The notes under the pieces are model-generated. The model worked only from the letters and a program-made list of their open reading frames with translations. It did not search any database and was not told the DNA's origin. This document shows, in pieces, positions 27,888 to 63,354 of a stretch of DNA of 64,000 nucleotides. A program made the position numbers and the translations under genes. Source of the DNA: Sphingosinicella sp. BN140058 (GTDB lineage: Bacteria > Pseudomonadota > Alphaproteobacteria > Sphingomonadales > Sphingomonadaceae); NCBI RefSeq assembly GCF_004135585.1, contig NZ_CP035501.1, positions 3,481,501 to 3,545,500 on the forward strand, written 5' to 3'. Position 1 is the stretch's first letter, and every line of letters begins with the position of its first letter.

Positions 27888-28838
27888 ATGAGCCGATTTC
27901 GCGAGGATGTTCTCGACTGGTTCGATGCAGGGCGCGTCGTTCCGGGAGGCGAGGATGCGGTGCTCCGCGCCGCCGGCATGCTGCCGACCCGTGCCGACTG
28001 GCACGCGTTCCTTGGCCGGCTCACCCTCTGGCTCGGCACGGTCGCGCTCGCGGCGGCGCTGATCTTCTTTTTCGCATTCAATTGGGACGATCTCGGCCGC
28101 TTCGGCAAATTCGGCCTGGTCGAGGCGGCGATGGTCGCCGCTTTGTTCGGCGTCTGGCGCGTCGGGCTCGACGGCCTGCCGGGGAAGGCCCTGTTGCTGC
28201 TGCTCGTCCTGCTGACCGGGGCGCTGCTGGCGCTTGCCGGGCAGGTCTATCAGACGGGTGCCGACACGTTCGAACTGTTCGCCTGGTGGGCGGTCCTGAT
28301 TCTCCCCTGGGTGCTGGTCGGCCGCTTCGCCCCCTTGTGGCTGGTCTGGCTCGCCTTGCTCAACCTCGCACTTTATCTCTTTGCCGACCTTTCCCACTCC
28401 GAGGGGCTGCTGCTGTGGGGCCTCTATGGCGTGAACGGGCTCGCTCTGATCCTGTGGGAAACGGCGCAGCGCCGGGGCGTGTCCTGGCTCGATGACGATT
28501 GGCCGCCGCGACTCGTTGCGGTGGCGAGCGGCACGATGGCCACCGCGCTGGCCGTCCGCGCGATCGGCTCTTCGGCCGACGGCAGCGCCCTTGGTGCGCT
28601 TGCTTATGCGGCCTGGCTTGCGGCATTCTATGGCTGGTACCGGCGTGTCCGGCCGGATCTGTTCATGCTCGCCGGCGGGGTGCTCAGCCTGATCGTCGTG
28701 GTGATATTCTTCCTTGCTGAGCATGTCATGGAACGCGCCGACGGCGGCGGTTTCCTGCTCACCGGTCTGGTCGTGCTCGGCATGTCGGCCGGCGGCGCGA
28801 TCTGGTTGAAATCGGTGGCGCGGGAGCAGCGGGCGTGA
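27888..28838 (+). CDS. DUF2157 membrane protein
   Basis: A 316-residue membrane protein. A soluble N-terminus of about 40 residues is followed by the diagnostic DUF2157 pattern: a helix ending ALIFFFAFNWDDLGRFGKF, then a series of about nine hydrophobic helices. It is the first gene of a three-gene operon, with DUF4401 and GDYXXLXY proteins that overlap by 4 and 8 bp. This trio recurs in proteobacteria as a unit, implying a membrane complex, but its biochemical role has not been established. Confidence 0.9.
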   Translation: MSRFREDVLDWFDAGRVVPGGEDAVLRAAGMLPTRADWHAFLGRLTLWLGTVALAAALIFFFAFNWDDLGRFGKFGLVEAAMVAALFGVWRVGLDGLPGKALLLLLVLLTGALLALAGQVYQTGADTFELFAWWAVLILPWVLVGRFAPLWLVWLALLNLALYLFADLSHSEGLLLWGLYGVNGLALILWETAQRRGVSWLDDDWPPRLVAVASGTMATALAVRAIGSSADGSALGALAYAAWLAAFYGWYRRVRPDLFMLAGGVLSLIVVVIFFLAEHVMERADGGGFLLTGLVVLGMSAGGAIWLKSVAREQRA

Positions 28839-29905
28839 GCGCGGCAGAGCTTTGGGAGCGGCTGCAAGCCGAGCATCTCGTCGAGGGTGCGCGGCCGGTC
28901 GCGGAGGCGCGCGCCGCACCGTGGTTCGTCCGGGTGATGCTCGGCATTGCCGGCTGGCTCGGCGCCATCTTCCTGCTGCTGTTCGTCGGCGTGACCTTCG
29001 ATCAGGTGTTCAGGGACGGTTCTGTCGCGCTGATCGCCGGCGGGGCCTGCTGCGCCGGCGCGTTCGGCCTGTTCAGACGCTTCGACGACAATGACTTCGC
29101 CGAACAATTCGCACTCGCCGCCAGCCTGGCCGGACAGATGCTGATCGTTGTCGGGCTGGCCGCCATCCTGTCTCCCGACATGGCGTCTCTTTTCCTCGCG
29201 GTTGCGGGAGCTGAGGCGGCGCTGGCGCTGGCCGTGCCCAATTTCCTGCACCGGGTGCTGGCCGGCAGCGGCGCCGCGATCGCGCTTTCGCTGGCGATCA
29301 ACCAATATGGTCTGCACGGCCTTTCCGCGCCTCTGCTCGGCGCCGGCCTCGTCTGGATCTGGCTGGCGCCGCAGCGTTGGGCCGCAGACGGGCGCTTGTG
29401 GCGGCCGCTCGGCTACGGGCTGGTCCTCGCATTGCTGCTGATCGAAACCTTTCGGCTGTTCGGCGCCGAAGACCTGTTCGGCCTTGCCCGCGAGTCGGTG
29501 CGCTGGATTGAGCTGCAAGGGCCGCTGATCGGCCGCGGCGCGGTTGCTGCCCTGCTCGTCTGGATCGCACTGGCCGAGAGCGGGCGGCAGGCGCTTCCGC
29601 CGGCGCGTCGGCTCGCCGCCGGCGGGGCCGCCCTCCTGTTCGGCCTGCTCGCTCTGGCCGCGCCCGGTCTCGGTTCGGCCATGCTGATCCTGCTGCTCGG
29701 CTTCGCCGCCGGCAATCGCATCCTGCTCACGCTCGGCACCCTCGCCCTGCTCGGCTTCGTCGCCCATTTCTACTACAGCCTGCATCTCACCCTGCTCGGA
29801 AAATCGGGCATGCTCGCGGCGACCGGCCTTTGCCTGCTCGCCGCCCATGCCGTGCTCGTGCGCGGGTGGTTCTCCTCGCCGGCCATGGGAGAGGCCAATG
29901 GCTAA
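28835..29905 (+). CDS. DUF4401 membrane protein
   Basis: A 356-residue polytopic protein, about ten hydrophobic helices after a short polar N-terminus (SAAELWERLQAEHLVEG). The GTG start overlaps the DUF2157 stop (GTGA), so the two are translated together. The middle gene of the DUF2157/DUF4401/GDYXXLXY operon. No catalytic residues stand out; large hydrophobic surfaces fit a partner of the DUF2157 protein. Confidence 0.88.
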   Translation: MSAAELWERLQAEHLVEGARPVAEARAAPWFVRVMLGIAGWLGAIFLLLFVGVTFDQVFRDGSVALIAGGACCAGAFGLFRRFDDNDFAEQFALAASLAGQMLIVVGLAAILSPDMASLFLAVAGAEAALALAVPNFLHRVLAGSGAAIALSLAINQYGLHGLSAPLLGAGLVWIWLAPQRWAADGRLWRPLGYGLVLALLLIETFRLFGAEDLFGLARESVRWIELQGPLIGRGAVAALLVWIALAESGRQALPPARRLAAGGAALLFGLLALAAPGLGSAMLILLLGFAAGNRILLTLGTLALLGFVAHFYYSLHLTLLGKSGMLAATGLCLLAAHAVLVRGWFSSPAMGEANG

Positions 29906-30410
29906 GCGCATCGCGCTCGTCGCCGGGCTCGCCGTGCTCGCGCTGATCAATTTCGGCATCTACCAGCGCGAGCAGCTGGTCCGGCACGGGTCACTGGTCC
30001 TGCTGAAGCTGAGCCCGGTCGATCCGCGCTCGCTGATGCAAGGCGATTACATGCGGCTGAGCTTCGAGGCCGCCGACCAGGCCTTTCCCGGCGCCGGCAG
30101 GTTCGGCGCGCCGCAGCCCGGAAGCGACGGCCACCTGGTGGTCCTGCGCGATGGACAAGGTGTCGGCCACTTTCGCCGGTTCGCCGACGGCCGTCCGCTC
30201 GGCCCCGGAGAAGTCGCGCTGCGCTACCGCATCCGCGCCGGCGAACCGCAATTCGCAACCAACGCCTTCTTCTTCGAAGAAGGCCAGGCGGACGTCTATG
30301 CCAAGGCCGCTTATGGCGAGTTCCGCGTCGCCGAAGACGGCGAGATGATCCTCACCGGCCTCCGCGACGCAAAAGGCGCGCGGCTCGGTCGCAGCCAGGC
30401 ATTGTTCTAG
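29898..30410 (+). CDS. GDYXXLXY-domain protein
   Basis: A 170-residue membrane-anchored protein. One N-terminal helix (residues 5-21) is followed by a periplasmic or outer-leaflet domain containing the family signature GDYMRLSF at about 49-56, preceded by DPRSLMQ. The C-terminal half has the conserved FFFEEGQADVYAKAAYGEFRV region. The start overlaps the DUF4401 gene by 8 bp. The domain is diagnostic of the third member of this operon type; its role is unknown. Confidence 0.92.
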   Translation: MAKRIALVAGLAVLALINFGIYQREQLVRHGSLVLLKLSPVDPRSLMQGDYMRLSFEAADQAFPGAGRFGAPQPGSDGHLVVLRDGQGVGHFRRFADGRPLGPGEVALRYRIRAGEPQFATNAFFFEEGQADVYAKAAYGEFRVAEDGEMILTGLRDAKGARLGRSQALF

Positions 30411-36529: not shown

Positions 36530-38197
36530 ATGCGTGAGAGGACTTCCCTGGCGGCCGCCATTCGGACGGCGCTCGCGGCGGAGCCCGAGCGGGTTCGCAT
36601 GCGCTATCTCGCCAATGGCGACGACGAGAGCGCGGTTCTCACCTGCGATGAGATCGACGCGACGGCGCGCCGGGTCGCCGCCGGCCTGCTTGCCGCGGAT
36701 CTGCAGCACAAGCGGGCACTGCTGGTGGTGGAGACCGGGCCCGATTTCCTGCACGCCATGCTCGGCTGCGTTTATGCCGAGGTGATCGCGATCCCCGCCT
36801 CCGAGCCGCGGCCCGGTGCATCGCTCGACCGTTTGAACGAGATCGCCGCCGCTTCCGCCGCGGCCGTGGTGCTGGCTTCGGCCCGGGTGGCGGCCGATCT
36901 CGTCCGCCGGATCGATCCCGAAAGCCCGCTCGCACGCGTGCCGATCGTCGAAGTGCCGGCGCTCGCCGCGGCCGATCCGCTCGCCGCCTGCCCGGGCGAA
37001 GATCGCGATCCGGCGCTGCCAGTACTGGTTCAATATACGTCGGGTTCGACGTCGACCCCGCGCGGCGTCGTGCTGACCAGCGACTGCCTCCTCGCCAACA
37101 TCGCCATGTCCTCGCGCGGCATGGACGTCGGCCAGAGCGAGGCGCCCGAGATGCTGGTCAACTGGATGCCGCATTATCACGACATGGGGCTGATCGGGAA
37201 AATCCTGACGCCGTTGGTCAACGCACTCGAGGTCGTCCACATGCCGCCGCTCGCCTTCGTCCAGCGGCCGGCGCGCTGGCTGAAGGCGATCAGCCGCTAC
37301 CGCGCCACGACCAGCGGCGCGCCGGCCTTCGCGCTCGATCTGTGCACGGCGCGTGTGCCGGATGCGGTGATCGACGAACTCGATCTGTCCTGCTGGCGAA
37401 CCGCCTTCTGCGGGGCCGAGCCGGTTTTCGCCTCGACGCTTGCCGCCTTTCGCCGCCGCTTCGCCCGTGCCGGTTTGCGCCCCGATGCGCTGTTCACCTG
37501 CTATGGCCTCGCCGAGACCACGCTCTACGCCGCCGGCGCGCATCCTCCGGCCGGTGCGCCCGAGCCCGACACGGCCGGCCTGCGCGCACCTTGTTATCTC
37601 GACGATGCGAGCCGGGCGACCCTCCGCATCGTCGACGATGCCGGACGGCCGGTGGCGGATGGCATCGAGGGCGCGATCTGGATCTCCGGAGCGTCGGTCG
37701 CCGCAGGCTATCTCGACGATGCGGCCGGAACGGCGGCGACCTTCCAGGCACGTCTCTCGCCTGACGATGGACGTCCGTATCTGCGCACCGGGGACGTCGG
37801 CCGGATCGAAGGCGATCGCCTCACCATCACCGGGCGCAGCAAGGATGTCCTGATCAGTGGCGGCGCCAACGTCGCGGCGGTGGACGTCGAGCGGTTCGCG
37901 ACCCGAGATCTTCCGCATGTGAACGCCGACGGCGCCGCCGCCTTTCAGAAGGCCGACCTGCCCGGGGCGCCGCTGGTGCTGGTCGTCGAGCGTCAGCGCG
38001 GAGCCGCGCCGACGATGCCGGACGACGAGACGATCGCGACGATGCGCCGCGCCGTGTTCGAGGCGCTCGGCATCGCGCTCGACGAGGTGCTGATCGCCCG
38101 GCCCGGCACCCTCCCGCGCACGACCAGCGGCAAGATCCGCCGCGCCGCGGTGCGCGACGGCTGGACCCCTGCGGATGCGATGACGGCCGCCTCATGA
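36530..38197 (+). CDS. Fatty acyl-AMP ligase (FAAL), first gene of a Dlt-like acylation operon
   Basis: A 555-residue adenylate-forming enzyme. The ATP-binding A3 motif is QYTSGSTSTPRG (Gln168 on). The following NWMPHYHDMGLIG and AFVQRPARWLKAISRYRAT blocks are diagnostic of FAALs rather than acyl-CoA synthetases, as are the FCGAEPV and RTGDVGRIEG stretches. FAALs form acyl-AMP and load it on a carrier protein. The C-terminal SGKIRRAAVRDG carries the catalytic Lys. The stop overlaps the P450 start by ATGA, and an ACP, an MBOAT and an SGNH-like gene follow. The inferred role is to supply acyl groups to that ACP; chain length is unknown. Confidence 0.92.
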   Translation: MRERTSLAAAIRTALAAEPERVRMRYLANGDDESAVLTCDEIDATARRVAAGLLAADLQHKRALLVVETGPDFLHAMLGCVYAEVIAIPASEPRPGASLDRLNEIAAASAAAVVLASARVAADLVRRIDPESPLARVPIVEVPALAAADPLAACPGEDRDPALPVLVQYTSGSTSTPRGVVLTSDCLLANIAMSSRGMDVGQSEAPEMLVNWMPHYHDMGLIGKILTPLVNALEVVHMPPLAFVQRPARWLKAISRYRATTSGAPAFALDLCTARVPDAVIDELDLSCWRTAFCGAEPVFASTLAAFRRRFARAGLRPDALFTCYGLAETTLYAAGAHPPAGAPEPDTAGLRAPCYLDDASRATLRIVDDAGRPVADGIEGAIWISGASVAAGYLDDAAGTAATFQARLSPDDGRPYLRTGDVGRIEGDRLTITGRSKDVLISGGANVAAVDVERFATRDLPHVNADGAAAFQKADLPGAPLVLVVERQRGAAPTMPDDETIATMRRAVFEALGIALDEVLIARPGTLPRTTSGKIRRAAVRDGWTPADAMTAAS

Positions 38198-39249
38198 TCG
38201 AAGCGGATGTCGCGGCATGCTCCAGGATCCTTCACGATCCTGCCTGCTCGGTGGCGGAAACCAACGCCTACTTCGCGGATCTGGAGGCGCAGAGCGGCAT
38301 TGCCATTCCAGGCATCCGGGCGCTGATGGCGCGGCTGCTGTTCGTCAACAACGGGGCCAACCATCTCGCCTTGCGCCGGGCGGCGCTCGGCTTCTTCCGG
38401 ACGAGTCACATCGCCGCGTGGCAGCCGGCCATCGCGGCCCGCGCCGGCGCGGCAGTCTCGGCGCTCGATCCGGCAGCGCCGGTCGATCTCATCGAGGCGC
38501 TGGTTCGGCCGGCGGTCAGCGACATGATCTGCCGCGTGCTCGGCCTGCCGCCCGAGCATCACCGATTGTTCGACCAGCGCACGCAGGAAGCGTTCAACCT
38601 GATCGAGCCGCTGCAATCGCTCCGCGTCCTGCGTGCGATCGAAAGCCGCCTGGGCGAACTCGCCGCCATCGTGGCCGAGGTTCTGCGCACGCCGCCCGGA
38701 GCGGAGCCGGGTCCGCCGACATTCCTTCACCACCCGCTCGACGGGGTCACCGCGGAAGATCGGACCTGGCTCGCGATCACGCTTTACGGCGCAAGCCGGG
38801 TCACCCAGCACACCCTCGCCAACATCCTGCTGCGGGTAGGCGAGGCGCCGGTCGCCGATCGAGGCGTGCTGCGGGGCGGTGCGCTGCGGATGGATGCGGT
38901 CGAACGGCTGATCGCGGCCGGAGGCTCGTTCGATCGGCTCGCCCGCATCCGCAGCGGGCCGGACGGCAAGCCGGCCAGAATCGAGATCCCGATCGGACCG
39001 GCGAGCCGCGCCGCTCTGGCCGGAGCCTGCCCGCTCGGAGGCGCGGCGGAGGGCGCCGTGCCGCACCTCGCCTTCGGCAGCGGCCTCCACCGCTGTATCG
39101 GCACGCAGCTTGCCCGCATCATCATCGCGGAGATCCTGACTTCATTGCTCGATCGCTTCCCCGCTTATGCGATCGCGGGTGCGCCCGCCGGCTTCATCCG
39201 CTCGGCTGCAATCGTCAGCCCCAACGATCTTTTCTGCCACCTGCGCTGA
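38194..39249 (+). CDS. Divergent cytochrome P450, short and lacking ExxR
   Basis: A 351-residue P450 (most bacterial ones are about 400). The heme loop is clear: FGSGLHRCIG with axial Cys301. Other signatures are abnormal. In the K helix the usual E-x-x-R is replaced (AVERLIA), and the I helix has LYGASRVTQHT instead of an acid-alcohol pair. The N-terminal 20-30 residues are also short. ExxR-less P450s are known but rare. It overlaps the FAAL gene by 4 bp and precedes the ACP by 13 bp, so an ACP-bound acyl chain is the likely substrate, as for BioI-type P450s; loss of oxidation activity is also possible. Confidence 0.85.
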   Translation: MIEADVAACSRILHDPACSVAETNAYFADLEAQSGIAIPGIRALMARLLFVNNGANHLALRRAALGFFRTSHIAAWQPAIAARAGAAVSALDPAAPVDLIEALVRPAVSDMICRVLGLPPEHHRLFDQRTQEAFNLIEPLQSLRVLRAIESRLGELAAIVAEVLRTPPGAEPGPPTFLHHPLDGVTAEDRTWLAITLYGASRVTQHTLANILLRVGEAPVADRGVLRGGALRMDAVERLIAAGGSFDRLARIRSGPDGKPARIEIPIGPASRAALAGACPLGGAAEGAVPHLAFGSGLHRCIGTQLARIIIAEILTSLLDRFPAYAIAGAPAGFIRSAAIVSPNDLFCHLR

Positions 39250-39262
39250 GGGAACCCGCCGC

Positions 39263-39514
39263 ATGTCCGACACGCCGACGCGCGACCAATTGATCGCCTT
39301 CATCCTCGATCGCCTCAGCCGGCGGCTCTCCGGTGCGGCCACGATCGATCTCGATCGGGATCTCATCGAACTCGGCCTCAAGTCGGTCGACGCGGTGCTG
39401 ATCAGCGGCGAGATCGAGGATGCGTTCGATCTGGAGATCGAACCCGTTCTGCTGTTCGAAGCGCGCACCGTGAACCGGGTTGCGGACAGCGTGCTGCGCT
39501 CGGCACAGGCCTGA
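39263..39514 (+). CDS. Acyl carrier protein of the FAAL operon
   Basis: An 83-residue carrier protein. The phosphopantetheine attachment site is Ser41 in ELGLKSVDAV, where ordinary ACPs have DSL; helix II continues LISGEIEDAFDLEI as usual. The protein begins MSDTPTRDQL after a GGGAACCCGCC site, 13 bp from the P450 stop. It should be charged by the FAAL and hold the acyl chain during P450 action and handover to the MBOAT protein, by analogy with DltC and FAAL-linked ACPs. Confidence 0.9.
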   Translation: MSDTPTRDQLIAFILDRLSRRLSGAATIDLDRDLIELGLKSVDAVLISGEIEDAFDLEIEPVLLFEARTVNRVADSVLRSAQA

Positions 39515-39559
39515 TGGGCAAGGGCGCACGCGCGGCATCGGCACGCCGGTAGCGCGGCC

Positions 39560-41146
39560 GTGCTGACCCAGGATCCGCGATTCCTTCTCGGCTTCTACCC
39601 GGCCCTGCTGCTGCTGTTCTGGAGCCTGTCCAGGGCCGCGCCGCAGCTCCGGGTCGGCTTCCTGCTCGCCGCATCGATGCTCTTCTACGGGCTGGCCGAC
39701 CCCCGCCATGCACCGCTCGTCGGCGCGATGGTGGTGCTGAACTTCGTGCTCGGGGCCGCGATCACGCGCGTCGGGGCGGGAACGACCCGCCTGCTGATCG
39801 CTGCCGGATGCCTCGCGAACATCGGGGTTCTGGCAGTTTACAAATATGGCATGTCGCCGGCGGACGCTGCGGCGGCAGGCAGCGAGGCGGCGGGCGCCGG
39901 GCTGCTGCAGGCGGGCCTTCCGCTCGGCCTCTCGTTCTTCGCGCTGAAACAGATTTCCTGGCTCGTCGACGTTCGTCCGACGCTCGCCCGTGCGGTGGGC
40001 GTCAGCGATTTTCCACGCTTCGCGCTCTACTCGATCTTCTTTCCGCAGATGATCGCCGGGCCGGTCTTCCGCTACCGCGACGCCGCCGAGGAATATCGGC
40101 TGCTGGAGAGCCGGACCGATCCTGCGATGCTGGCGCTCGGACTCTCGGTCTTCGTCATGGGCCTCGCCAAGAAGCTGCTGATCGCCGATCCGATCGGCGG
40201 CGTCGTCGATCCGATCTTTGCCGCCGTGGCCATCGGCCACGCGCCGACGATCGCCGAAAGCTGGGCAGCCGGATGGGGCTACCTGCTTCAGCTCTATTTC
40301 GATTTCTCGGGCTTCTCGGACATGGCGCTCGGCATCGGGCTCAGCGTCGGGCTGCGCCTGCCGATCAATTTCTACTCGCCGCTCAAGGCCCGCTTCGCCA
40401 GCGAATATTTCGACCGCTGGCACATGTCGCTGGTGGTCTTCATCCGGACCTACATCTTCTCGCCGATCTTCCTGTGGGTGCGCAAGCGGGCACCCGGCAA
40501 CGCCGTGCGGCGCACGATCCTGGCGTCCGCGGCCGCGACCCTGATCAGCCTGTCGCTGATCGGCTGGTGGCACGGCGCCCGGCCGACCTATGTCCTGTCC
40601 GGCTTCCTCACCGGCGTGGTCGCCGTTCTCTTCCAACTCGCGGCCGTGCTTCGCACCGGTCCCGCGCCGCTGCCCAACCGCAGGCGAAGGGCGATCGGCC
40701 ATGTCGTCGTGCTCCTCGGGCTCACCCTGTTTGCGATCCTGTTCCGTGCCGACAGCCTGGATACCGCCTGGTCGGTCTGGACCGGGCTGATCGGCCAGGC
40801 CGCCCCCGATCATCATGCCGGGGCCGCGCTGCTGCCCAACCTTCTCGCCGCGAGCAGCCTCGAATCGGTGCTCCATCTCTCCGCGCCCGCCTCAGCGATC
40901 GGGCTGCTGGCCGCCGCGGCTGGGACGCTGATCGCGCTGGCCGCACCAAACAGCGTCCAGATCTTCGATCTCTACGATCATCCGGGTGCACCGGCCCGGC
41001 CTTCCGGCACCGGAAGCCTCGCCATAACGGCCTGGCGGTGGCGGCGGAGCCCCGGCTGGGCGACGGCAACCGCCCTCATCGCCGCGGCTGCGCTCGCCCA
41101 GGCCTGCAACGGCGCGCTCAGCACGACCATCTATGCCCGCTTCTGA
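39560..41146 (+). CDS. MBOAT acyltransferase (AlgI/DltB-like)
   Basis: A 528-residue membrane O-acyltransferase, about eleven helices. The family core is intact: LQLYFDFSGFSDMALGIG, then DRWHMSL and the catalytic His338 in GWWHGARPTYVLSG. AlgI and DltB use this site to pass acyl groups from the cytoplasmic to the outer face of the membrane. The GTG start lies 45 bp after the ACP. The C-terminal 100 residues add two or three extra helices. Its stop overlaps the SGNH-like gene by 14 bp. Placement after FAAL and ACP makes it the likely acyl exporter/transferase. Confidence 0.92.
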   Translation: MLTQDPRFLLGFYPALLLLFWSLSRAAPQLRVGFLLAASMLFYGLADPRHAPLVGAMVVLNFVLGAAITRVGAGTTRLLIAAGCLANIGVLAVYKYGMSPADAAAAGSEAAGAGLLQAGLPLGLSFFALKQISWLVDVRPTLARAVGVSDFPRFALYSIFFPQMIAGPVFRYRDAAEEYRLLESRTDPAMLALGLSVFVMGLAKKLLIADPIGGVVDPIFAAVAIGHAPTIAESWAAGWGYLLQLYFDFSGFSDMALGIGLSVGLRLPINFYSPLKARFASEYFDRWHMSLVVFIRTYIFSPIFLWVRKRAPGNAVRRTILASAAATLISLSLIGWWHGARPTYVLSGFLTGVVAVLFQLAAVLRTGPAPLPNRRRRAIGHVVVLLGLTLFAILFRADSLDTAWSVWTGLIGQAAPDHHAGAALLPNLLAASSLESVLHLSAPASAIGLLAAAAGTLIALAAPNSVQIFDLYDHPGAPARPSGTGSLAITAWRWRRSPGWATATALIAAAALAQACNGALSTTIYARF

Positions 41147-42161
41147 ACTCTCCCCCGGACGGTACGTCGCAATGCTGGCCGCGGCAGCCGCCTTGCTGGT
41201 CGCCGCCGTCGCTTTGCTGAACCTGACGATGGATCCTTATTCGCTCGCGAGCGGCCGCTGGTACCGGCTCCGCGACGCCGCATTCGACGATGTCGCCGAT
41301 CGCGTCCCGGACGGCGGCAACGCCGCTCGCGCGCACGCCGTCGCGGCTTCGGACAGCCCCATCCTGCTGCTCGGCACGTCGCGCGTGCAGGTCGGCTTCG
41401 AGACACCGCCGGCTGCCTTCAATGCCGGCCAGCCGGCGGCAACGTTGGAAGAGCTGCTCCGGATCATGGCCGCCGCGGGCGCGCGGGCGCAGCCGCCGCG
41501 CCTCTATGCCGTCGAACTGTCGAACCGGCTTAGACTGCCGTTTGCTCGCCGCGCCGCCCTTGCGGCCGATTACCCGGGTCCCGGGGTACGCTTCCTTGCC
41601 ACCTCGACCACGCACGTCTCGGTGCATCTGCTTGGCCACCTCGGCGGGCAGCGCCGGCCAGGGCATGCCCGCAGCGATTTCTTTCTGGCCCTGCCGGCGC
41701 GCAAGCCGCCACCGCGTAAGGTGGTTGCCGATCCGGATGTGCGCACCGCGTTCGAGCAGGTCGGCAGCGAGGTGGAGGCGATGCTCGCCGGTGATCTGCG
41801 CCGGATGATGGCGATCTGCGCGCGAAGCGGCAGCGCTCTGCTGCTGTTCGAAGCGCCGGTGCATCCCGATCTCCTGAGCGATCGTCGCGCCATGGCCGAG
41901 GTCCGCCGCAGGATTGCGCTTTATCGCTCGGTCCGGCGGCGGCTCGCGCCGCTCTTCCCGTCGTGCCGCAGTGCGGTCGCGGATTTTTCCGGTGCGCCGG
42001 GATCGATCCCCGTCGCCGGCGCAGAGCTGCGCGCCAACTGGTTCAATGCGCTCCACTTCCTGCCGCCGGTGGGCGCATCTTTGCTCCAGCGGATCGAGCC
42101 TATGATGTCGCCGGCAGGCGCGGCGCCGGCCGCACCAGGAGGACGAGCAGGAGGACGTTGA
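41133..42161 (+). CDS. Membrane-anchored SGNH/DltD-AlgX-like acyltransferase partner
   Basis: A 342-residue protein. One N-terminal helix (about 12-32) ends in a LNLTMDPYSL motif, the membrane exit seen in DltD- and AlgJ-like proteins, so the body is periplasmic. A GTSRVQVGF stretch places Ser83 as the nucleophile of an SGNH site, and FNALHF places His308, but Asp of the usual DxxH is Asn305, a deviation. It overlaps the MBOAT gene by 14 bp and ends convergently inside the flippase gene. By analogy with DltD and AlgX/J, it could transfer the exported acyl group to its glycan. Confidence 0.8.
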   Translation: MPASELSPGRYVAMLAAAAALLVAAVALLNLTMDPYSLASGRWYRLRDAAFDDVADRVPDGGNAARAHAVAASDSPILLLGTSRVQVGFETPPAAFNAGQPAATLEELLRIMAAAGARAQPPRLYAVELSNRLRLPFARRAALAADYPGPGVRFLATSTTHVSVHLLGHLGGQRRPGHARSDFFLALPARKPPPRKVVADPDVRTAFEQVGSEVEAMLAGDLRRMMAICARSGSALLLFEAPVHPDLLSDRRAMAEVRRRIALYRSVRRRLAPLFPSCRSAVADFSGAPGSIPVAGAELRANWFNALHFLPPVGASLLQRIEPMMSPAGAAPAAPGGRAGGR

Positions 42162-51656: not shown

Positions 51657-54600
51657 TCAAAGCATTGCCGGCTGCTTCTCTTCAGGCTCCGTGATGAACC
51701 GGCGCAGCTTCGGCGCGATGCGCTGCTCCACGCGATCGATCACTTCGTAGACGACGGGGACCAGCACGAGCGAGAGCGCCGTCGAGCTGATCAGGCCGCC
51801 GATCACCGCCACCGCCATCGGCTGGCGGAAGGCCGAGCCTTCCCCGAGGCCGATCGCGGTGGGCAGCATTCCGGCGGCCATCGCGAAGGTGGTCATGATG
51901 ATCGGCCGGGCGCGCTCGTGACAGGCGTGCACGATGGCGTCGCGCCGGCTGGCGCCCTCACGCTCGCGCTCGATCGCGAATTCGACCAGCAGGATCGAAT
52001 TCTTGGCGGCGAGCCCCATCAGCATCAGGATACCGATCAGCACCGGCAGGGTGAGGTCGAGCCCGACCAGCAGCAGCGCCAGGAAAGCGCCGCCGATCGA
52101 CAGCGGGAGCGCCGAAAGGATGATCAGCGGCTTGAGGAAACTGCGGAACAGCAGCACCATGACGGCGAGGATCATGAAGACGCCGGCGGCCATCGCAACC
52201 CCGAAGCCGAGGAACAGCTCCTGCATCTGCTCGACGTCGCCGGTCGGCGTCAGGCTGACGCCCGCCGGCAGATGCTTGAGAACGGGGAGGGCATTCACCG
52301 CATCGGTTGCCTGACCGAGCGTCACCCCGAGCGGCAGATCCGCCTGCACGGCCGCTCGGCGGGCGCGGTTGAAACGTTCGATCCGGCCGAGGCCCGGCTG
52401 GAATCCGATGTCGGCCACGGCGCCCAAAGTGGTAGTGCCGCCGGATGCGGTCGGCAGCTGCATCGCCTCGATCTTGCCGAGCTGCTCGCGGGCTTCGAGC
52501 GGAATGCGCACGCGGATCGGCAGGCGGCGCTCGCCCTCGGTGAACATCGCCACGTTGGCATCCATCTCGCCGATCGTCGCCACCCGGGCGGCGGAGGCGA
52601 TGGTCTGCGCGCTTACGCCGAGCCGGGCCGCCTCGGCGAGCCGCGGCCGGATGACCAGCTCGGGGCCGGGCGGCGGGGTCGCCGGCCGCGGATCGGCGAC
52701 CTCGGTCAGGCCGCGCATCTCTTTTTCGAGCTGGAGCAGGGTCCGCTCCAGCAGCGGACCATTCTCCCCCGACAGCACGATCTCGAGGTCGGGCCGGCCC
52801 CACTCGCCCTGGGTGACCACGCGCGCATCGGCGATCCGCCGTAACGATGGGCGGATCTGGCTCTGAAACGCTTCGGTCGTGATGCCCGAATCCTTCTTCA
52901 ACACCACGGTGATCGTTGCGCGACGAAGGTCCGCACCACTGGCGGCGTTGTTGCTTGCGCCGGTCTGCGAGAACACGCGGGCAACCGCAGGATTGGCGCG
53001 CATCAAACGCGTCGTGTCTTCGACGATCCGCTCCATGTCCGCCTGGGTGGCGCCCGGTGCGGCTTGCGCTTCCAGGAAGATGTAGCCGGGATTGCTCGCT
53101 GGCATGAAGCCCGCCGGGATCAGCCCCGCCAGCATGATCGAGCCGGCAAAGAAGAGCCCGCCGAGCAGGACCGAGATCTTGTGGTGATTCAGGGCCCAGC
53201 CGAGGCTCTTCGCGTAGAAGGGCCGCATCGGCCGTTCCTCATGCGCCTTGCGGCTCGGCTTCAGGAAGTAGGCTGCGAGCAACGGAGTGAGGAGGCGCGC
53301 AACCAGGAGCGAGCAGAGCACGGCGGCGGCGACGGTGAGGCCGAACTCCTTGAAGAATTGGCCGACCGTACCGCCGAGGAAGGAGACAGGGGTGAACACG
53401 ACCACGATCGCCATCGTCGTCGCGATCACGGCGAGGCCAATCGCGTCGGCGCCTTCCAGCGCCGCCTGATAAGGGCGCTGTCCACGTTCGATCCTCTTCT
53501 CGATATTTTCGATCTCGACGATTGCATCGTCGACGAGAATGCCGATCACAAGGGTGAGCGAGAGCAGAGTCACGACGTTGAGCGTGAAGCCGCACAGCCA
53601 CATCACGACGAACGTCGGCAGCAGCGACAGCGGCATCGCCAGCGCAGCGATCATCGTCGATCGCCATTCGCGCAGGAACAGGAAGACGATCAGCGCGGCA
53701 AGGAGCATGCCTTCGACGAGGACGTGCACGGTGGCCTTGAAGCTGTTGCGAGTCTCGGTGACGGTGGAAATGATCAGCTCGATCGACACGTTCGGGTGGG
53801 TGGCTCGGAGCTGATCGAGCGCAGCGATGACTTCGTCCTCGACCGCAACGTCGCTCGCGACAGGGCTTTTCATCACCTGGAAGGCGACGACCGGCCTGTC
53901 GTCCAGGCGTGCGAAGCCCTGCTCCTCTCCCGCCCCCGCGCCGATCGAGGCGACGTCGCCGAGCAGCACGATGCGGCCGGCCACCGGGATTTCGACCTTG
54001 CGGATCTGCTCGATCGATTCCGCCGCACCGAGCACCCGGATATTCTGCTGCTGGCCGCCGACCCGGGCCTGGCCGCCGCCGGTATCCACCAAAAACACCC
54101 GTAGCGCGTCGTTGATCTGCGGAGCGGTGACCCCGTAGGCGGCCATCCGGCCAGGATCGAGAACGACGTTGATCTCCCGATCGACCCCGCCGACTCGCGC
54201 CACGCGGGCAACCCCCGGACGTGCCATCAAATCGCGCGCGATGGTGTCCTCGACGAACCAGCTGAGCTCCGTCTCGCTCATGCCCCTGGCCGAAACCGCA
54301 TAGGTCAGAATCGGAGCCGCATCGATCTCGAGCCGCTGGACGATGGGTTCCTCGATCTCGCGCGGCAGCTCGCTTCGGATCTCGTCGACCGCGCGCTGGA
54401 CGTCGTCGGTCGCGCGCTGGGGATCGTCACCGACCTCGAATTCGATCGTGGTCAGGGAAGAGCTCTGTGTGATCGTCGAGGTGACGTTGTCGACGCCGGA
54501 GACGCTGGTCACCGCATCCTCGATGAGACGGGTGACCTGGGTTTCGAGCTCCTGGGGAGCGGCGCCTTCCTGAATGACCGAGACCTGGACGACCGGGAAG

Positions 54601-54743
54601 GAGACATCCGGGAACTGCTTGATTGGGAGGAACAGATAAGCGGCGATGCCGGCGATGCTGAGGCCGAGAAACAGGACGATGACCGGGATCGGGTTCCGGA
54701 TCGCCCAGGAAGAAATGCCGGCAACGCCGTGATGCTCGCTCAT
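51657..54743 (-). CDS. RND efflux permease (HAE1 family)
   Basis: A 1028-residue inner-membrane pump. Twelve helices with two large periplasmic loops can be traced; the first helix follows SWAIRNPIPVIVLFLGLS. TM4 carries the proton-relay pair in GILVDDAIVEIENIEKR, and TM10 has the conserved GLAAKNSILLVEFA. It should export hydrophobic compounds by proton antiport. The start overlaps the adaptor gene stop (ATGA). Third gene of an OMF-MFP-RND operon whose TetR regulator lies divergently at its head. Confidence 0.95.
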   Translation of the reverse strand: MSEHHGVAGISSWAIRNPIPVIVLFLGLSIAGIAAYLFLPIKQFPDVSFPVVQVSVIQEGAAPQELETQVTRLIEDAVTSVSGVDNVTSTITQSSSLTTIEFEVGDDPQRATDDVQRAVDEIRSELPREIEEPIVQRLEIDAAPILTYAVSARGMSETELSWFVEDTIARDLMARPGVARVARVGGVDREINVVLDPGRMAAYGVTAPQINDALRVFLVDTGGGQARVGGQQQNIRVLGAAESIEQIRKVEIPVAGRIVLLGDVASIGAGAGEEQGFARLDDRPVVAFQVMKSPVASDVAVEDEVIAALDQLRATHPNVSIELIISTVTETRNSFKATVHVLVEGMLLAALIVFLFLREWRSTMIAALAMPLSLLPTFVVMWLCGFTLNVVTLLSLTLVIGILVDDAIVEIENIEKRIERGQRPYQAALEGADAIGLAVIATTMAIVVVFTPVSFLGGTVGQFFKEFGLTVAAAVLCSLLVARLLTPLLAAYFLKPSRKAHEERPMRPFYAKSLGWALNHHKISVLLGGLFFAGSIMLAGLIPAGFMPASNPGYIFLEAQAAPGATQADMERIVEDTTRLMRANPAVARVFSQTGASNNAASGADLRRATITVVLKKDSGITTEAFQSQIRPSLRRIADARVVTQGEWGRPDLEIVLSGENGPLLERTLLQLEKEMRGLTEVADPRPATPPPGPELVIRPRLAEAARLGVSAQTIASAARVATIGEMDANVAMFTEGERRLPIRVRIPLEAREQLGKIEAMQLPTASGGTTTLGAVADIGFQPGLGRIERFNRARRAAVQADLPLGVTLGQATDAVNALPVLKHLPAGVSLTPTGDVEQMQELFLGFGVAMAAGVFMILAVMVLLFRSFLKPLIILSALPLSIGGAFLALLLVGLDLTLPVLIGILMLMGLAAKNSILLVEFAIEREREGASRRDAIVHACHERARPIIMTTFAMAAGMLPTAIGLGEGSAFRQPMAVAVIGGLISSTALSLVLVPVVYEVIDRVEQRIAPKLRRFITEPEEKQPAML

Positions 54744-55981
54744 CGGGCGGCGCCTCCGCCGGCTGGCGCCGCGCCAGCCGGGCCCGATCCAGATCCCGGC
54801 TGCTGCGGGGCGAAGGTCGTGCCGCCGCCGCGGGGCGTCGCTGGGGCGTTCGTGACCTCGGCGGGCGGTGGCGGGGCACTCGCGCCACTTCCGTCAGTGC
54901 GGCCGCGGACCGGCCGCACCTGTTCGCCTTCGAGCACGAACGCGCCGCCGCCAAGCAGAACCATCGTTCCGACCGGCGGCCCCGAGAGGATTTCGACCCA
55001 CCCGCCGACCCGCCGACCGGTTCGAACCGGAACGCGATGGGCGCGATTGCCTGGCCGGAGCACCATCACCGATACGCCTTCCGCATCGAAGCGCAGCGCA
55101 TCCTCCGGAAGCGCCGGAGCCTGGGTGGTCGCGCCGGTGAAGTTGGCACGCCCGAAACCGCCCACTCGAAGATCGTTGCGGACCGGAAGCGTGACCAGCA
55201 CCGCGCCGAGGCGCGAGTCGCCGCTGACCTCGGCAGAGAGGGTGCGAATGGTGCCGGTCACCATCTCACCGCTCGGCAGCTGCACTTGCGCCGACTGGCC
55301 GACGCGAATGGTAGCGAGTTCGGCTTCGGGCACATCGGCCCGCAGCTCGACGAGGCCGCCCCTGGCAATGCGGAACATCGGCGTGCCGCCGACGGCGCCG
55401 ATGTCGCCCGGTCTGACCGCACGTGCGAGAATGCGACCGGAGACCGGCGCACGGATGATGAGGCGGCTCAATCGGGTGCGCAGCTCGGCGATTTGCGCCT
55501 CCGCGGCGCGGACCTGCGCCGCCGCCGTTGCCGCCGCGGTGCGGCGCTGCTCGATCTGTTCGGTCGCCACCACGCCTTCGCGGTCGAGACCGCTGACACG
55601 CGCCGCCTCCCTACGTGCCTGCGCCGCTGAAGCACGCTGCTGGGCAAGGTTGGCCTGAAGCTGGGCGATCTGCGCCTCGAGGAGAGTCGGATCCATTCGC
55701 ACCAACGGCTGACCCGCGCGCACAAAATCTCCTTCCTCAGCAAGCACCTGGGTGACCCGGTAGCCTGCGACTTCGGCGCCGACCGCAGCCTCCTCCCGCG
55801 CCACCAGCACGCCCGATGCGGTGATGCCGCCGACCAGCGGCCGTAACTCGATGCGCGTAACCCCGACGTCGCGCGGTGCGCTGTCGGCCTTCTTGGCGGT
55901 CTCCTCGCTTCCGCCGCAGGCGGCGAGAACAAGGCAACTCGCGATCGCCACTGCGCGCAAAATTTCTCTCCCGGTGATCAT
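54740..55981 (-). CDS. RND efflux periplasmic adaptor (MFP/HlyD family)
   Basis: A 413-residue lipoprotein (signal ending LVLAAC). Barrel-sandwich half-motif VGAEVAGYRVTQVLAEEGDFV is followed by an alpha-hairpin (residues about 100-170, rich in Ala/Gln/Arg) and IRAPVSGRILARAVRPGD for the second half. Role: bridging the RND pump and the outer-membrane factor. An extra C-terminal tail of about 60 residues is Gly/Pro/Ala-rich (PPPPAEV ... GSGSGPAGAAP), probably disordered. Overlaps both neighbours (TGATG before, ATGA after), so all three are co-translated. Confidence 0.93.
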   Translation of the reverse strand: MITGREILRAVAIASCLVLAACGGSEETAKKADSAPRDVGVTRIELRPLVGGITASGVLVAREEAAVGAEVAGYRVTQVLAEEGDFVRAGQPLVRMDPTLLEAQIAQLQANLAQQRASAAQARREAARVSGLDREGVVATEQIEQRRTAAATAAAQVRAAEAQIAELRTRLSRLIIRAPVSGRILARAVRPGDIGAVGGTPMFRIARGGLVELRADVPEAELATIRVGQSAQVQLPSGEMVTGTIRTLSAEVSGDSRLGAVLVTLPVRNDLRVGGFGRANFTGATTQAPALPEDALRFDAEGVSVMVLRPGNRAHRVPVRTGRRVGGWVEILSGPPVGTMVLLGGGAFVLEGEQVRPVRGRTDGSGASAPPPPAEVTNAPATPRGGGTTFAPQQPGSGSGPAGAAPAGGGAAR

Positions 55982-57507
55982 CAGCTTAGCCTTCCGGCCG
56001 GCGCAGGTGTCCAGCCCCCGCCGAAGGCGCGGAACGTCTGGACCGAGCGGCGAAGCGCCTGAGCGTGCGCAGCGGCGGCCGCGGACCTGATGGTTCGCCA
56101 GGCCCGCTCCGCGTCCAGAACGGCGGTGAGATTGTCGAGCCCAAGGGCATAGCGCCGACGGGCTGCATCAAAGGCCACCCGCGCCCGGCTCTCCCCCGCA
56201 TCGAGCACGGCGAAGCGGTTTCGGTCGGACTCGAGCAGGGTCATAGCCTGATCGGCCTCCGAATAGGCGGTCTGCACCGCCCGCTCATAGGCAAGGACCG
56301 CCTGCTCGGCGCGGGCGCCCGAGGCGCGCAGCTCGGCAAGCAGGCGCGGACGATCGAGCACGGGGAGGGTGAGGCCCAGTCCAAACGCCCAGAAGGCGGT
56401 GGTGCTCTCGAAGGTGCCGCGCTGGAGTCCGAGGCCCAAGCCCGGCCGGAGCGAGATCCGAGGAAACAACTCGAGCTCCGCCGTGGTCAGATTGCCTGCG
56501 GCGGATTGGATACGCGCTTCCGCCTCGCGGACGTCCGGACGGCGGACGAGCAGGTCGCCGGGAATGAGCGCGGGGGGCGAAGGGATGGCCCCGAGATCGG
56601 CAGTCACCGGAACCGTGTCGAGGCTGGCGCCGGCATTGCCGGTGAGGAGGAGGAGCGAGCGCCGCAGATTACGCAATTGGGCTTCGAGATCGCGCAATTG
56701 GGCTGAGGCTTGCGCGACGTCCGCCTCGATCCGGGCTGCGTCTGCGGTCGGAGCGAGGCCGCGCTGCCCCTGAATTCGGGCGATCCGCAGCAATTCTTCC
56801 TGGATCCTGAGCGTAGCGCGCGCATCCTCGACCTGCACCGCGAGTGCGCGGGCCTGGAACAGAGTGTCCGCGATCTCCGCGGTGACGGCGACTCGCGACG
56901 CTTCGGCATTGAAGCGGGCCGCCGCGAAATCACCCTCGGCGGTGCGCCGGGCGGCGCTGCGCCGGCCAAAGAAATCGAGCTCGTAGCTGACGTTGAAGTT
57001 GAGATTCGCAGTGGCGCTGCGACCGCTTGGGGTCAGCGAGAAGCCCGGCGGGATACCGGGGATGTCGATGCTTTGCTGTCCGCCGAGATCCTCTGTCTGC
57101 CTGACCTCGCGGCTGCCCTCGATATTCCCCTGCGGTCCCAATTGGGCGAGGGTCGCCGCACGCAGCGCGCGGGCTTCGTCGAGACGCGCCAGAGCGGTGC
57201 GGGTATCGAAGCCGGTCGCCAGCGCCTGCTCGACGAGGGCGGTCAGCTGAGGATCGTCATAGACCGTCCACCAGCGGTCGAGCGCGATCGTCGCGCCCGC
57301 GGCCGCTTGCGCGTCGAATGCCTGCGGCAGTCGAACATCCGGAGCACGGGGGCTCCTGCCGGTCGTGCAGCCACCGGCCAGCGCCACCATCAGCAGCATC
57401 GGCATCAGCCGCCACGCACAAACGCATCCGAGCCGCCCCCAGCGCGCCTCGGCAACTTCTACCCCCCCGATGACGTTGGAACCGCCGGAGGCGGGCGCAT
57501 CGGACAT
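55981..57507 (-). CDS. RND efflux outer-membrane factor (NodT/TolC-like)
   Basis: A 508-residue outer-membrane channel of the NodT lipoprotein group. The LAGGC lipobox lies near residue 48, so the true start may be an internal ATG (MPMLLMVALAGGC) about 34 codons in. Two repeats of the OEP domain follow, with the typical DRWWTVYDDPQLTALVEQAL opening, LFPRISLRPGLGLGL and a last helix near DAERAWRTIRSA. First gene of the operon; the divergent TetR gene and a perfect 27-bp operator lie immediately upstream. Confidence 0.93.
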   Translation of the reverse strand: MSDAPASGGSNVIGGVEVAEARWGRLGCVCAWRLMPMLLMVALAGGCTTGRSPRAPDVRLPQAFDAQAAAGATIALDRWWTVYDDPQLTALVEQALATGFDTRTALARLDEARALRAATLAQLGPQGNIEGSREVRQTEDLGGQQSIDIPGIPPGFSLTPSGRSATANLNFNVSYELDFFGRRSAARRTAEGDFAAARFNAEASRVAVTAEIADTLFQARALAVQVEDARATLRIQEELLRIARIQGQRGLAPTADAARIEADVAQASAQLRDLEAQLRNLRRSLLLLTGNAGASLDTVPVTADLGAIPSPPALIPGDLLVRRPDVREAEARIQSAAGNLTTAELELFPRISLRPGLGLGLQRGTFESTTAFWAFGLGLTLPVLDRPRLLAELRASGARAEQAVLAYERAVQTAYSEADQAMTLLESDRNRFAVLDAGESRARVAFDAARRRYALGLDNLTAVLDAERAWRTIRSAAAAAHAQALRRSVQTFRAFGGGWTPAPAGRLS

Positions 57508-61061: not shown

Positions 61062-61916
61062 ATGACGCAGGCACACAGCACCGCGGAGGAGCAGGCGGCA
61101 CTCTGGAACGGCGATGCCGGACGATCCTGGGTCGCGGCGCAAAGCGTCCTCGACGGGATGTTTCAGCCGATCGAGGACGATCTGGCTGGCTGGGTGGCAG
61201 AAGCAGAGGTCCGATCGGTGCTGGACGTCGGCTGCGGGACCGGCAGCACGACGATCGCGATGGCACGGAGGCTCGGTGGCGGTGCCGATTGCACCGGCAT
61301 CGACATCTCGGAGCCGATGCTCGCCGCCGCCCGGTCCTCTGCGGCGCAGGAATCCGTAGGTGCTGCCTTCCTTTGTGCAGATGCGCAGTCCCATCCCCTT
61401 CCGGCCGGCGGATATGATGCGATCGTCTCGCGCTTCGGGGTCATGTTCTTTGCCGACCCGGTCCGAGCGTTCGCCAATCTGCGCCGCGCATCGGCGCCGG
61501 GAGCGGCGCTGCGAATGTTCGCGTGGCGGAGCCCGGCGGACAATCCGTTCATGACGACGGCCGAGCGGGCCGCGGCGCCGTTGCTCCCCGAAATGCCCGC
61601 GCGCGATCCTGACGCGCCCGGCCAGTTCGCTTTCGCCGACCGGAACAGGATCCTCTCGATCCTCGAACAAAGCGGCTGGACCGCGGGCGACGTGCGGCCG
61701 TTCGACTTCGATTGTGCGCTCCCGGAGGCGCGCCTGGAAGAATATTTCACCCGCTTCGGGCCAATCGCCCGCTATCTTCGTGGGATAGAGGGTGCGGCAC
61801 TCGCGGAGATCGTCGCTACGGTTCGCGCGGCGTTCGAGCCTTATGTGCGCGGTGAGGACGTCCGCTTCACCGCCGCCTGCTGGCTGATCAGCGCCCGGGC
61901 GCCAGGCGCCGTGTGA
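61062..61916 (+). CDS. Class I SAM-dependent methyltransferase
   Basis: A 284-residue UbiE-like methyltransferase. Motif I is VLDVGCGTGSTTIAM (about 52-66), motif II GIDISEPM, motif III YDAIVSRFGVMFF, followed by LRRASAPGAAL. AAGGGAGACGAAG lies before the ATG. It is divergent from, and probably activated by, the MerR regulator, a combination repeated in alphaproteobacteria. Substrate unknown; a detoxifying methylation is a guess. The last 29 bp overlap the flippase gene on the other strand. Confidence 0.9.
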   Translation: MTQAHSTAEEQAALWNGDAGRSWVAAQSVLDGMFQPIEDDLAGWVAEAEVRSVLDVGCGTGSTTIAMARRLGGGADCTGIDISEPMLAAARSSAAQESVGAAFLCADAQSHPLPAGGYDAIVSRFGVMFFADPVRAFANLRRASAPGAALRMFAWRSPADNPFMTTAERAAAPLLPEMPARDPDAPGQFAFADRNRILSILEQSGWTAGDVRPFDFDCALPEARLEEYFTRFGPIARYLRGIEGAALAEIVATVRAAFEPYVRGEDVRFTAACWLISARAPGAV

Positions 61917-63354
61917 GGCCGCCGATCAGCAGGGCGGCTTCCTGCTCGGCGCCGCCCGGCCGACCCGAGGCGAACCAGAGGAAGAAAAGGGACGTTCCAT
62001 AAACGACAGCGCCCACCGCAACCTCGACCAGGAGATCGGGCAGCGGGTGGCCGGTTTCGACGCTGAGCAGGCGCATCAGCACGAAGGCCATAGCGGCGGC
62101 GGCAAAGAGCGGCCGGAGGAGATTGGCGGCGAGGCTGACCGCACTGGTTTTCGCGTCCATGGCGAGGAGGACGATACCGATCGTCAGCATCGTTGCGTTG
62201 ACGCACAGTGCCGCCACCGCGACCGCCTCCGGGCGCCGGAAGAAGAAGGCTGCGGTGCCGATACCCGCCGCGGACAAAAAGGCGCCGGCGATGTTCAGGG
62301 TCGCCGCGCGCCGCGCCTGGCCGGATGCCTGGAAGACGGAGGCCACCATCAGCGACACGGCCTGCACGCCCGTATAGAGCGCGATGATCCGCATCAGCGG
62401 CGCGGCCGGCAGCCACTTGGCGCCGAGCAGGACGGCGATCGTGTCGGGTGCGGTGGCGACCAGTCCCGCCGCGAGCGGGGCTACGATCGCTGCATAGGCG
62501 CCGATCACCGTTGCGACATTGGTGCTGCCATTGGCTTCGCTGCGGGCGACAGTAACGAACGTGACCCGGTTGAGCGCGGTGGCGATTTCCTGAGTGAAGA
62601 TGCTCGAAAGGTCCTTGGACACCGAATAAAGGCCCACCGTCGCCGGCAGCACGAAGCGGCCAAGCACCAGCCGCTCGATCTGCGACTGCACCCATTCGGA
62701 GAAGGTGCTGACGAACATCCACAGCGAGACCCCGAGGATCTCGGCGCGTCGCGCCAGGCTCAGCCGCGGCCGGTAAGGATGGGCGACGTAGGTGCCGATC
62801 ATCCAGAAAATCGACTGCGCGACCATCCCGATCACCAGCGCCCAATAATTCCGCAATGTGAAGGCGGCGACCAGAGAAACCAGGAGGGAGGCGACGCGAA
62901 CGCCGAGCCGCATTGCCATGTCGCGGCCGAAGGTCATGTCGCGCTCGAAATCGACGATACCGATATTCGAGACGGCGAGGGCCACCATGCGCAGAGACAT
63001 GACGCAGAGAATGCCGGTCACCGCCGGGATCTTGTAGAAGCTCGCCGCGAGCGGCGCGATCGCGAGCATCGCCACCGCCAGCAGCATGAACAGGATCAGC
63101 TGAATCGTCCAGGCGGTGTCGTAATGCGATCGATCCGGATCGGGAACCCTGAGCAGGGCCTGGCGGAGGCCGATCCAGCCGAACAGCTCAACGAACGCCG
63201 CCGCCGAAAGGGCGATCGCGACGACCCCGAAATCGCTCGGCTGGAGCAAACGGGCGAGCGTAATCACCGAGACGAGGCCGATAGCGCGCACGCCCCATTG
63301 CATGGTGACCGCCAGGAAGGCTGAGCGGTAAAGGGTCGCGCGATCGATCGTCAC
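61888..63354 (-). CDS. Oligosaccharide flippase (Wzx-like, MVIN/MATE fold)
   Basis: A 488-residue protein with about fourteen helices and the ITLARLLQPSDFGVVAIALSA opening of the Wzx/RfbX flippase family. It moves lipid-linked oligosaccharides across the inner membrane. The GTG start overlaps the stop of the upstream deacetylase gene (GTGA), so the longer open frame upstream is rejected. Second flippase in the window and only distantly like the first, so it belongs to another glycan pathway that continues beyond the right edge. Confidence 0.9.
   Translation of the reverse strand: MTIDRATLYRSAFLAVTMQWGVRAIGLVSVITLARLLQPSDFGVVAIALSAAAFVELFGWIGLRQALLRVPDPDRSHYDTAWTIQLILFMLLAVAMLAIAPLAASFYKIPAVTGILCVMSLRMVALAVSNIGIVDFERDMTFGRDMAMRLGVRVASLLVSLVAAFTLRNYWALVIGMVAQSIFWMIGTYVAHPYRPRLSLARRAEILGVSLWMFVSTFSEWVQSQIERLVLGRFVLPATVGLYSVSKDLSSIFTQEIATALNRVTFVTVARSEANGSTNVATVIGAYAAIVAPLAAGLVATAPDTIAVLLGAKWLPAAPLMRIIALYTGVQAVSLMVASVFQASGQARRAATLNIAGAFLSAAGIGTAAFFFRRPEAVAVAALCVNATMLTIGIVLLAMDAKTSAVSLAANLLRPLFAAAAMAFVLMRLLSVETGHPLPDLLVEVAVGAVVYGTSLFFLWFASGRPGGAEQEAALLIGGLTRRLAPGR

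Follow-up and report, generated by a model that had tools for sequence, protein, structure and literature searches.

The locus described here raises the question of what a ligase of the fatty acyl-AMP ligase (FAAL) type, a cytochrome P450, an acyl carrier protein (ACP), an acyltransferase of the MBOAT family and an SGNH-fold protein could be doing together in one bacterial operon. The five genes follow one another in this order on the plus strand at positions 36530-42161 of a 64,000-nt stretch of the genome of Sphingosinicella sp. BN140058 (NZ_CP035501.1, positions 3,481,501-3,545,500), and this whole stretch is what we call the window. A first-pass annotation of the window had reported the five families and their spacing, and the intergenic gaps that we recomputed (-4, +13, +45 and -14 bp) bear it out. 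It had also proposed that the operon charges the ACP with a fatty acid, possibly oxidises it and exports it to a glycan or lipid. We find this idea supported overall, with oxidation and transfer as inferred steps, while a glycan acceptor, which had been proposed from the neighboring Wzx and EpsG genes, is less well supported. Our preferred reading, to which we give a probability of roughly 0.7, is that the operon encodes a carrier-dependent, Dlt-like pathway that transfers a modified fatty acyl group, carbamoylated in the relatives, to an acceptor outside the cytoplasm. The gene order, the protein families, the conserved catalytic residues, the common descent of the MBOAT and the P450 with their relatives and the structural similarity are established directly.

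Conservation of the gene set in other genomes

The loci used for comparison came from a scan of GTDB, with a single genome for each species, in which an alignment of the MBOAT gave 85 relatives, and 80 loci were kept. In tblastn searches with the window proteins, 9 of the 80 loci had FAAL, P450 and ACP next to the MBOAT and arranged as they are in the window. These nine loci, which we call cassettes, belong to three phyla and come from Puniceicoccaceae bacterium K14 (L031), Pseudomonas mangiferae (L033), Pseudomonas sp. RIT-PI-AD (L038), Galbibacter pacificus (L042), Sphingopyxis witflariensis (L046), a Brevundimonas metagenome-assembled genome (L054), Pedobacter polysacchareus (L056), Hahella sp. 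HN01 (L076) and Stutzerimonas kirkiae (L084). The same searches, at a threshold of 1e-4, found no P450 and no ACP in the 71 remaining MBOAT loci, and found a FAAL in one and a carbamoyltransferase in one; for 51 of these loci 6 kb or more of upstream sequence was available. Hidden Markov models (HMMs) built from the cassettes likewise found no P450 and no ACP in the 71 loci, together with five FAAL-like ligases and 15 SGNH proteins; because the HMMs were built from the cassettes, their matches in all nine of them are not independent evidence. An SGNH-like gene follows the MBOAT gene in every cassette, as recognized by its position and by its aligned Ser and His, and a tenth complete cassette is carried by a plasmid of Rhodobacteraceae SC52 (L151). 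Conservation of gene order had been named as a test in the first-pass annotation, and because the order is kept across three phyla while P450 and ACP were not found at the other 71 loci, we do not regard the operon as a chance grouping. Immediately upstream of the two Pseudomonas cassettes are genes for glycine cleavage (L033:3125-4826 and L038:2979-4298; gcvT in both, gcvH found in L033), which may point to a shared insertion site. Within the family of the host the operon is rare and patchy, since an orthologous P450 was found solely in the window's own genome in a sample of 397 genomes that included it.

The cassettes hold a sixth gene that was overlooked when the set was described as one of five. 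A carbamoyltransferase, recognized by homology, lies between ACP and MBOAT in all nine, and the domains PF02543 and PF16861 were present in all three of the cassette loci scanned for domains. This gene is not found at the window locus, where just 45 bp separate ACP and MBOAT, and the sole carbamoyltransferase match that the genome has, at 31% identity, lies about 339 kb downstream. The MBOAT and P450 trees would fit a single origin of the gene set followed by loss of the carbamoyltransferase, whose absence is established for the window locus alone and not for its close metagenomic relatives. The carbamoyltransferase family acts on hydroxyls.

The MBOAT tree was made by a quick method from 132 chosen rows, taking in 28 listed database proteins and most of the fetched loci and leaving out near-copies and odd-length frames. 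It contains one clade of 25 rows with a Shimodaira-Hasegawa-like approximate likelihood ratio test (SH-aLRT) support of 100, made up of 12 rows of the window clade, 10 cassette rows and 3 metagenomic rows. Within it, the window clade has the Puniceicoccaceae cassette as its sister (SH-aLRT 93, not starred), and the branches of L151 and P0107 are long. The P450 tree has 68 rows and places 32 of them in a single clade with support 100/100, separate from 36 other P450s; the Puniceicoccaceae cassette is again sister to the window clade (100/99) and the first P450 of the Hahella cassette sits on a long branch. The two trees show that the MBOATs and P450s of the window and the cassettes share common descent. 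The plasmid of Rhodobacteraceae SC52 has tandem MBOAT-SGNH pairs (L151:13761-19161), the first in the cassette clade and the second, ending FIYFQF, outside it.

It could be argued that the MBOAT performs ordinary AlgI/PatA-type O-acetylation from acetyl-CoA and that FAAL, P450 and ACP are its neighbors by chance, since the MBOAT family is widespread in the relatives, with a match in 44 of the 148 genomes (the window's own included). This explanation is strongly disfavored: ACP and P450 accompany the MBOAT in 9/9 cassettes and, by tblastn, in 0/71 other loci, and the MBOAT stands in a clade of its own and does not group with the other sampled MBOATs, as the first-pass annotation had wished to see tested. 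Moreover, the segment after the RWH anchor reads LGG[NSRK] in 0/25 members of the clade versus 45 of 92 anchored others. On our reading of the profile alignment this segment would correspond to a region of DltB that, according to the available excerpt of PMC11035591, holds helix HC, which binds DltC.

Close relatives were listed for the P450 (n=13, at least 47% identity) and for the MBOAT (n=17, at least 45% identity), the lists giving solely the longest contig per cluster. Contigs sized 552639, 36957, 11684, 10543 and 8520 appear in both lists, and the one sized 8520 also in the SGNH list, which fits linkage of these genes.

Ligase, carrier and acyltransferase pair

The best match of the ligase in the PDB was 7r7g, named a polyketide synthase (9e-96). 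The named acyl-AMP ligases FadD23 (5e-69), 3pbk (3e-58) and FadD28 (1e-48) all scored better than the other adenylating enzymes, represented by 4-coumarate-CoA ligase (2e-23) and the D-Ala ligase DltA (8e-16). The NCBIfam ranking agrees with this, with no FAAL model above its cut-off. Judged by these matches, the ligase is far closer to the named FAALs than to DltA, as had been claimed from its signatures, and it is also closer to them than to the CoA ligase. The window's genome also has a second FAAL-like ligase (C1:4121527-4123050), which lies outside the window and is 37% identical to the window FAAL. The ACP has as its best solved matches the small carriers 2n98 (3e-8) and 4hkg, and the usable Ser that had been set as a test is there: the phosphopantetheine Ser is aligned in 10/10 sequences of the window and cassettes.

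The MBOAT has its WH His at residue 338, and this His is kept in the window and all nine cassettes, in keeping with the intact His already reported. The first-pass annotation named the family and this residue correctly but missed a C-terminal motif that resembles a fused acyl shuttle. The protein ends in TIYARF, and its Tyr525 is invariant in 18 sequences and aligned with the cassettes in 10/10. An ending of the form YxxF is found in 21/25 members of the clade versus 105/107 others, and the form [FYWLIMV]xYxxF in 10/25 versus 105/107. In the available excerpt of PMC12148441, the C-terminal Tyr of PatA is described as being acetylated from acetyl-CoA, the acetylated peptide then feeding the SGNH partner, and the Tyr of DltX as carrying D-Ala from the carrier DltC likewise. 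The MBOAT profile, searched against the PDB at 1e-3, matched DltB alone, and the score against the DltB model TIGR04091 was 138.2-138.9 bits, far under the cut-off of 375. The SGNH protein of the window has the SGNH fold, with the block I Ser and the block V His present.

Proposed pathway and alternatives

We infer each chemical step of the pathway, and also the chain length, the oxidation site and the acceptor. The FAAL would activate a free fatty acid as its adenylate and attach it to the ACP phosphopantetheine, and the P450 would dock on the acyl-ACP and oxidise the chain. In the relatives the carbamoyltransferase would then carbamoylate the new hydroxyl; the window lacks this step. At the cytoplasmic face the MBOAT would accept the ACP-borne acyl group on the Tyr in its C-terminal motif, from which the membrane-anchored SGNH protein would take it and esterify the extracytoplasmic acceptor.

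The P450 is an unconventional member of the set, and although its family and place in the operon were given correctly by the first-pass annotation, its non-canonical motifs were overlooked. All 32 clade P450s (aligned with the 36 others) retain the heme Cys, and they also retain every other fixed position of FGxGxHxCxG. In a Foldseek search with the AlphaFold model, 12 of the 14 best matches were P450BioI chains in complex with acyl-ACP, at about 17% identity and with numerous other P450s scoring nearly as high. The Galbibacter and Hahella cassettes have two P450 genes each, and single genes with two tandem P450 domains, both with the heme Cys, are found at four cassette loci, namely L046:5780-7999, L054:5809-8016, L150:9552-11738 and L151:9580-11757.

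A number of observations weigh against the pathway as we propose it, and those on the P450 come first. The I-helix acid is present in 0/32 clade P450s versus 29/36 comparison P450s, and the E and R of ExxR are both kept in 1/32 versus 36/36, counts that depend on the alignment, with the Pseudomonas mangiferae protein, for instance, having its E one place off. A one-residue gap in the I-helix is common to 32/32, and in the window protein E..R is replaced by R..A and the acid-alcohol pair by R-V. The window protein has the P450 fold and the heme-thiolate Cys and does not have the canonical oxygen-activation motifs; because the I-helix acid is gone from the clade and ExxR from all but one of its members, ordinary monooxygenation is doubtful and should not be assumed. 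These losses, and a weak NCBIfam match of the window P450 to TIGR04515 (P450-derived glycosyltransferase activators; 24.4 bits, cut-off 343), could mean that the protein docks the carrier or acts as a scaffold and is no catalyst, the acyl chain being passed on unoxidised. We consider this unlikely, given that the heme-binding residues are kept without exception and that a carbamoyltransferase, of a family acting on hydroxyls, is encoded in all nine relatives. In addition, CYP157 has lost ExxR within the P450 superfamily, as stated in the available excerpt of PMC3599690, so that ExxR is not absolutely required for membership.

The other observations on this side concern the remaining parts of the pathway. 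The window operon has no ferredoxin or reductase gene. Five MBOAT relatives on contigs of more than 10 kb (P0029, P0030, P0031, P0041 and P0043) have no size-matched contig in the P450 list, so a form without the P450 may exist and the P450 is perhaps not obligatory. When TIYARF is compared with FxYxxF, the Tyr and the final Phe match and Thr replaces the first Phe, and the MBOATs of the Hahella (SFSYGG) and Stutzerimonas (LYVYNR) cassettes do not have the YxxF ending. The catalytic Asp of DxxH is Asn in the window SGNH protein and Asp in the nine cassette proteins, with D, N or Y at this position in the 8 closest relatives of the window protein, and as a tblastn query the window SGNH recovered 1/9 of the cassette SGNH proteins, that of Hahella. 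Finally, a Phaeobacter plasmid encodes FAAL, a double P450, ACP and carbamoyltransferase with no MBOAT or SGNH annotated adjoining them.

The Phaeobacter locus also speaks for the main rival of our reading, a small-molecule pathway in which the MBOAT and SGNH proteins join the modified fatty acid to a secreted metabolite, or in which the fatty acid is itself the metabolite. The three carbamoyltransferases looked up outside the cassettes (38-41% identity) adjoin polyketide- or peptide-synthetase genes or another natural-product-like gene set, and at six of the nine cassette loci no polysaccharide gene was found among the selected flanking open reading frames that were scanned. Against this stand the glycosyltransferase, sulfotransferase or sugar-nucleotide genes among the scanned neighbors of the Puniceicoccaceae, Galbibacter and Pedobacter cassettes, and the fact that an MBOAT-SGNH pair with a C-terminal Tyr is, in the excerpt of PMC12148441, machinery for acylating envelope polymers. 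We judge a small-molecule product to be rather improbable. With export to an extracytoplasmic acceptor as our preferred reading, our best guess for the acceptor is an envelope glycan or glycolipid; the six cassette loci whose scanned flanks had no polysaccharide gene are the reason why we find a glycan less supported than was first claimed.

Layout of the locus and relation to known systems

The features of the window are collected in Table 1. The neighbors of the operon include Wzx, GT4 and EpsG genes by Pfam, in agreement with the first-pass annotation.

Table 1. Genes of the operon and other features of the window
Feature	Position	Strand	Length	Details
Fatty acyl-AMP ligase (FAAL)	36530..38197	+	555 aa	Pfam PF00501, 179 bits; PDB matches include named FAALs
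Non-canonical cytochrome P450	38194..39249	+	351 aa	Heme Cys motif FGSGLHRCIG; AlphaFold pLDDT (predicted local distance difference test) 93.7
Acyl carrier protein (ACP)	39263..39514	+	~83 aa	Pfam PF00550, 41.1 bits; Ser in LGLKS
MBOAT acyltransferase	39560..41146	+	528 aa	GTG start; Pfam PF03062, 81.1 bits
Membrane-anchored SGNH-fold protein	41133..42161	+	342 aa	
DUF2157, DUF4401 and GDYXXLXY proteins	27888-30410	+		Encoded adjacently
RND efflux system	51657-57507	-		AcrB-type pump, HlyD-type adaptor, outer membrane factor
Second Wzx-like polysaccharide flippase	61888-63588	-		~20 kb from the operon

The Dlt system (DltA, DltC, DltB, DltX, DltD) carries out the D-alanylation of teichoic acids. 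It resembles the window in having ligase, carrier, MBOAT and SGNH protein in one operon, and in that the acyl group would be borne by the carrier, but the window ligase is a FAAL, a P450 is added (plus a carbamoyltransferase in the relatives), the putative shuttle Tyr is fused to the MBOAT, and the MBOAT scores below the DltB cut-off. Because the ligase is not a D-Ala ligase and the DltB cut-off is not reached, we do not count the operon as a Dlt member, Dlt-like as it is. In PatA/PatB and AlgI/AlgJ/AlgX, as in the window, an SGNH protein accompanies an MBOAT that carries a Tyr motif at its C-terminus, the window's TIYARF matching FxYxxF in part, and the excerpt of PMC12148441 describes the other MBOAT-SGNH pathways as having no carrier and using acyl-CoA. 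The window operon differs from PatA and AlgI in its ACP, FAAL and P450, with an ACP gene adjoining in the window and in 9/9 cassettes, and in its separate MBOAT clade; the presence of the carrier and the separate clade are why we do not assign it to the PatA/AlgI pathway.

P450BioI, the best structural match of the window P450 model, acts on acyl-ACP, and differs from the window P450 in the low identity (~17%), in its operon and in that the window's clade is without the I-helix acid and ExxR. P450BioI (CYP107H1) has canonical P450 motifs. The FAAL-ACP loading modules of lipopeptide and polyketide synthesis combine a FAAL fold with a stand-alone ACP, as the window does, but in the window the MBOAT-SGNH pair follows and there is no peptide or polyketide synthetase. 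In the AlmE-AlmF-AlmG system of lipid A glycinylation, a ligase, a carrier and a membrane-associated acyltransferase modify an envelope glycolipid; here glycine is what the ligase activates, the acyltransferase belongs to a family other than MBOAT, and there is no P450. No published description of a FAAL-P450-ACP-MBOAT-SGNH system was found in the open-licence literature, in line with the earlier remark that no such system was known.

It is possible, though we say so tentatively and at somewhat less than even odds, that these genes represent a third type of MBOAT-SGNH pathway, distinct from Dlt and independent of acetyl-CoA. It would be a portable cassette of six or seven genes in which a fatty acid is loaded on a dedicated ACP, modified by a P450 clade that has lost the acid-alcohol pair and ExxR, carbamoylated in most hosts and exported by a fused acyl-Tyr shuttle, and the envelope would gain a carbamoyloxy- or hydroxy-fatty acyl ester not yet seen. 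An MBOAT clade found in three phyla combines a dedicated carrier with a fused acyl-Tyr motif, and a P450 clade that lacks the customary residues for oxygen activation comes with a defined partner ACP, in a cassette small enough to be transferred to a laboratory strain. If the proposed steps hold, a fatty acid would be tailored on its carrier before export, and the acyl groups of the envelope could extend beyond the acetyl and D-alanyl types known from the systems described so far.

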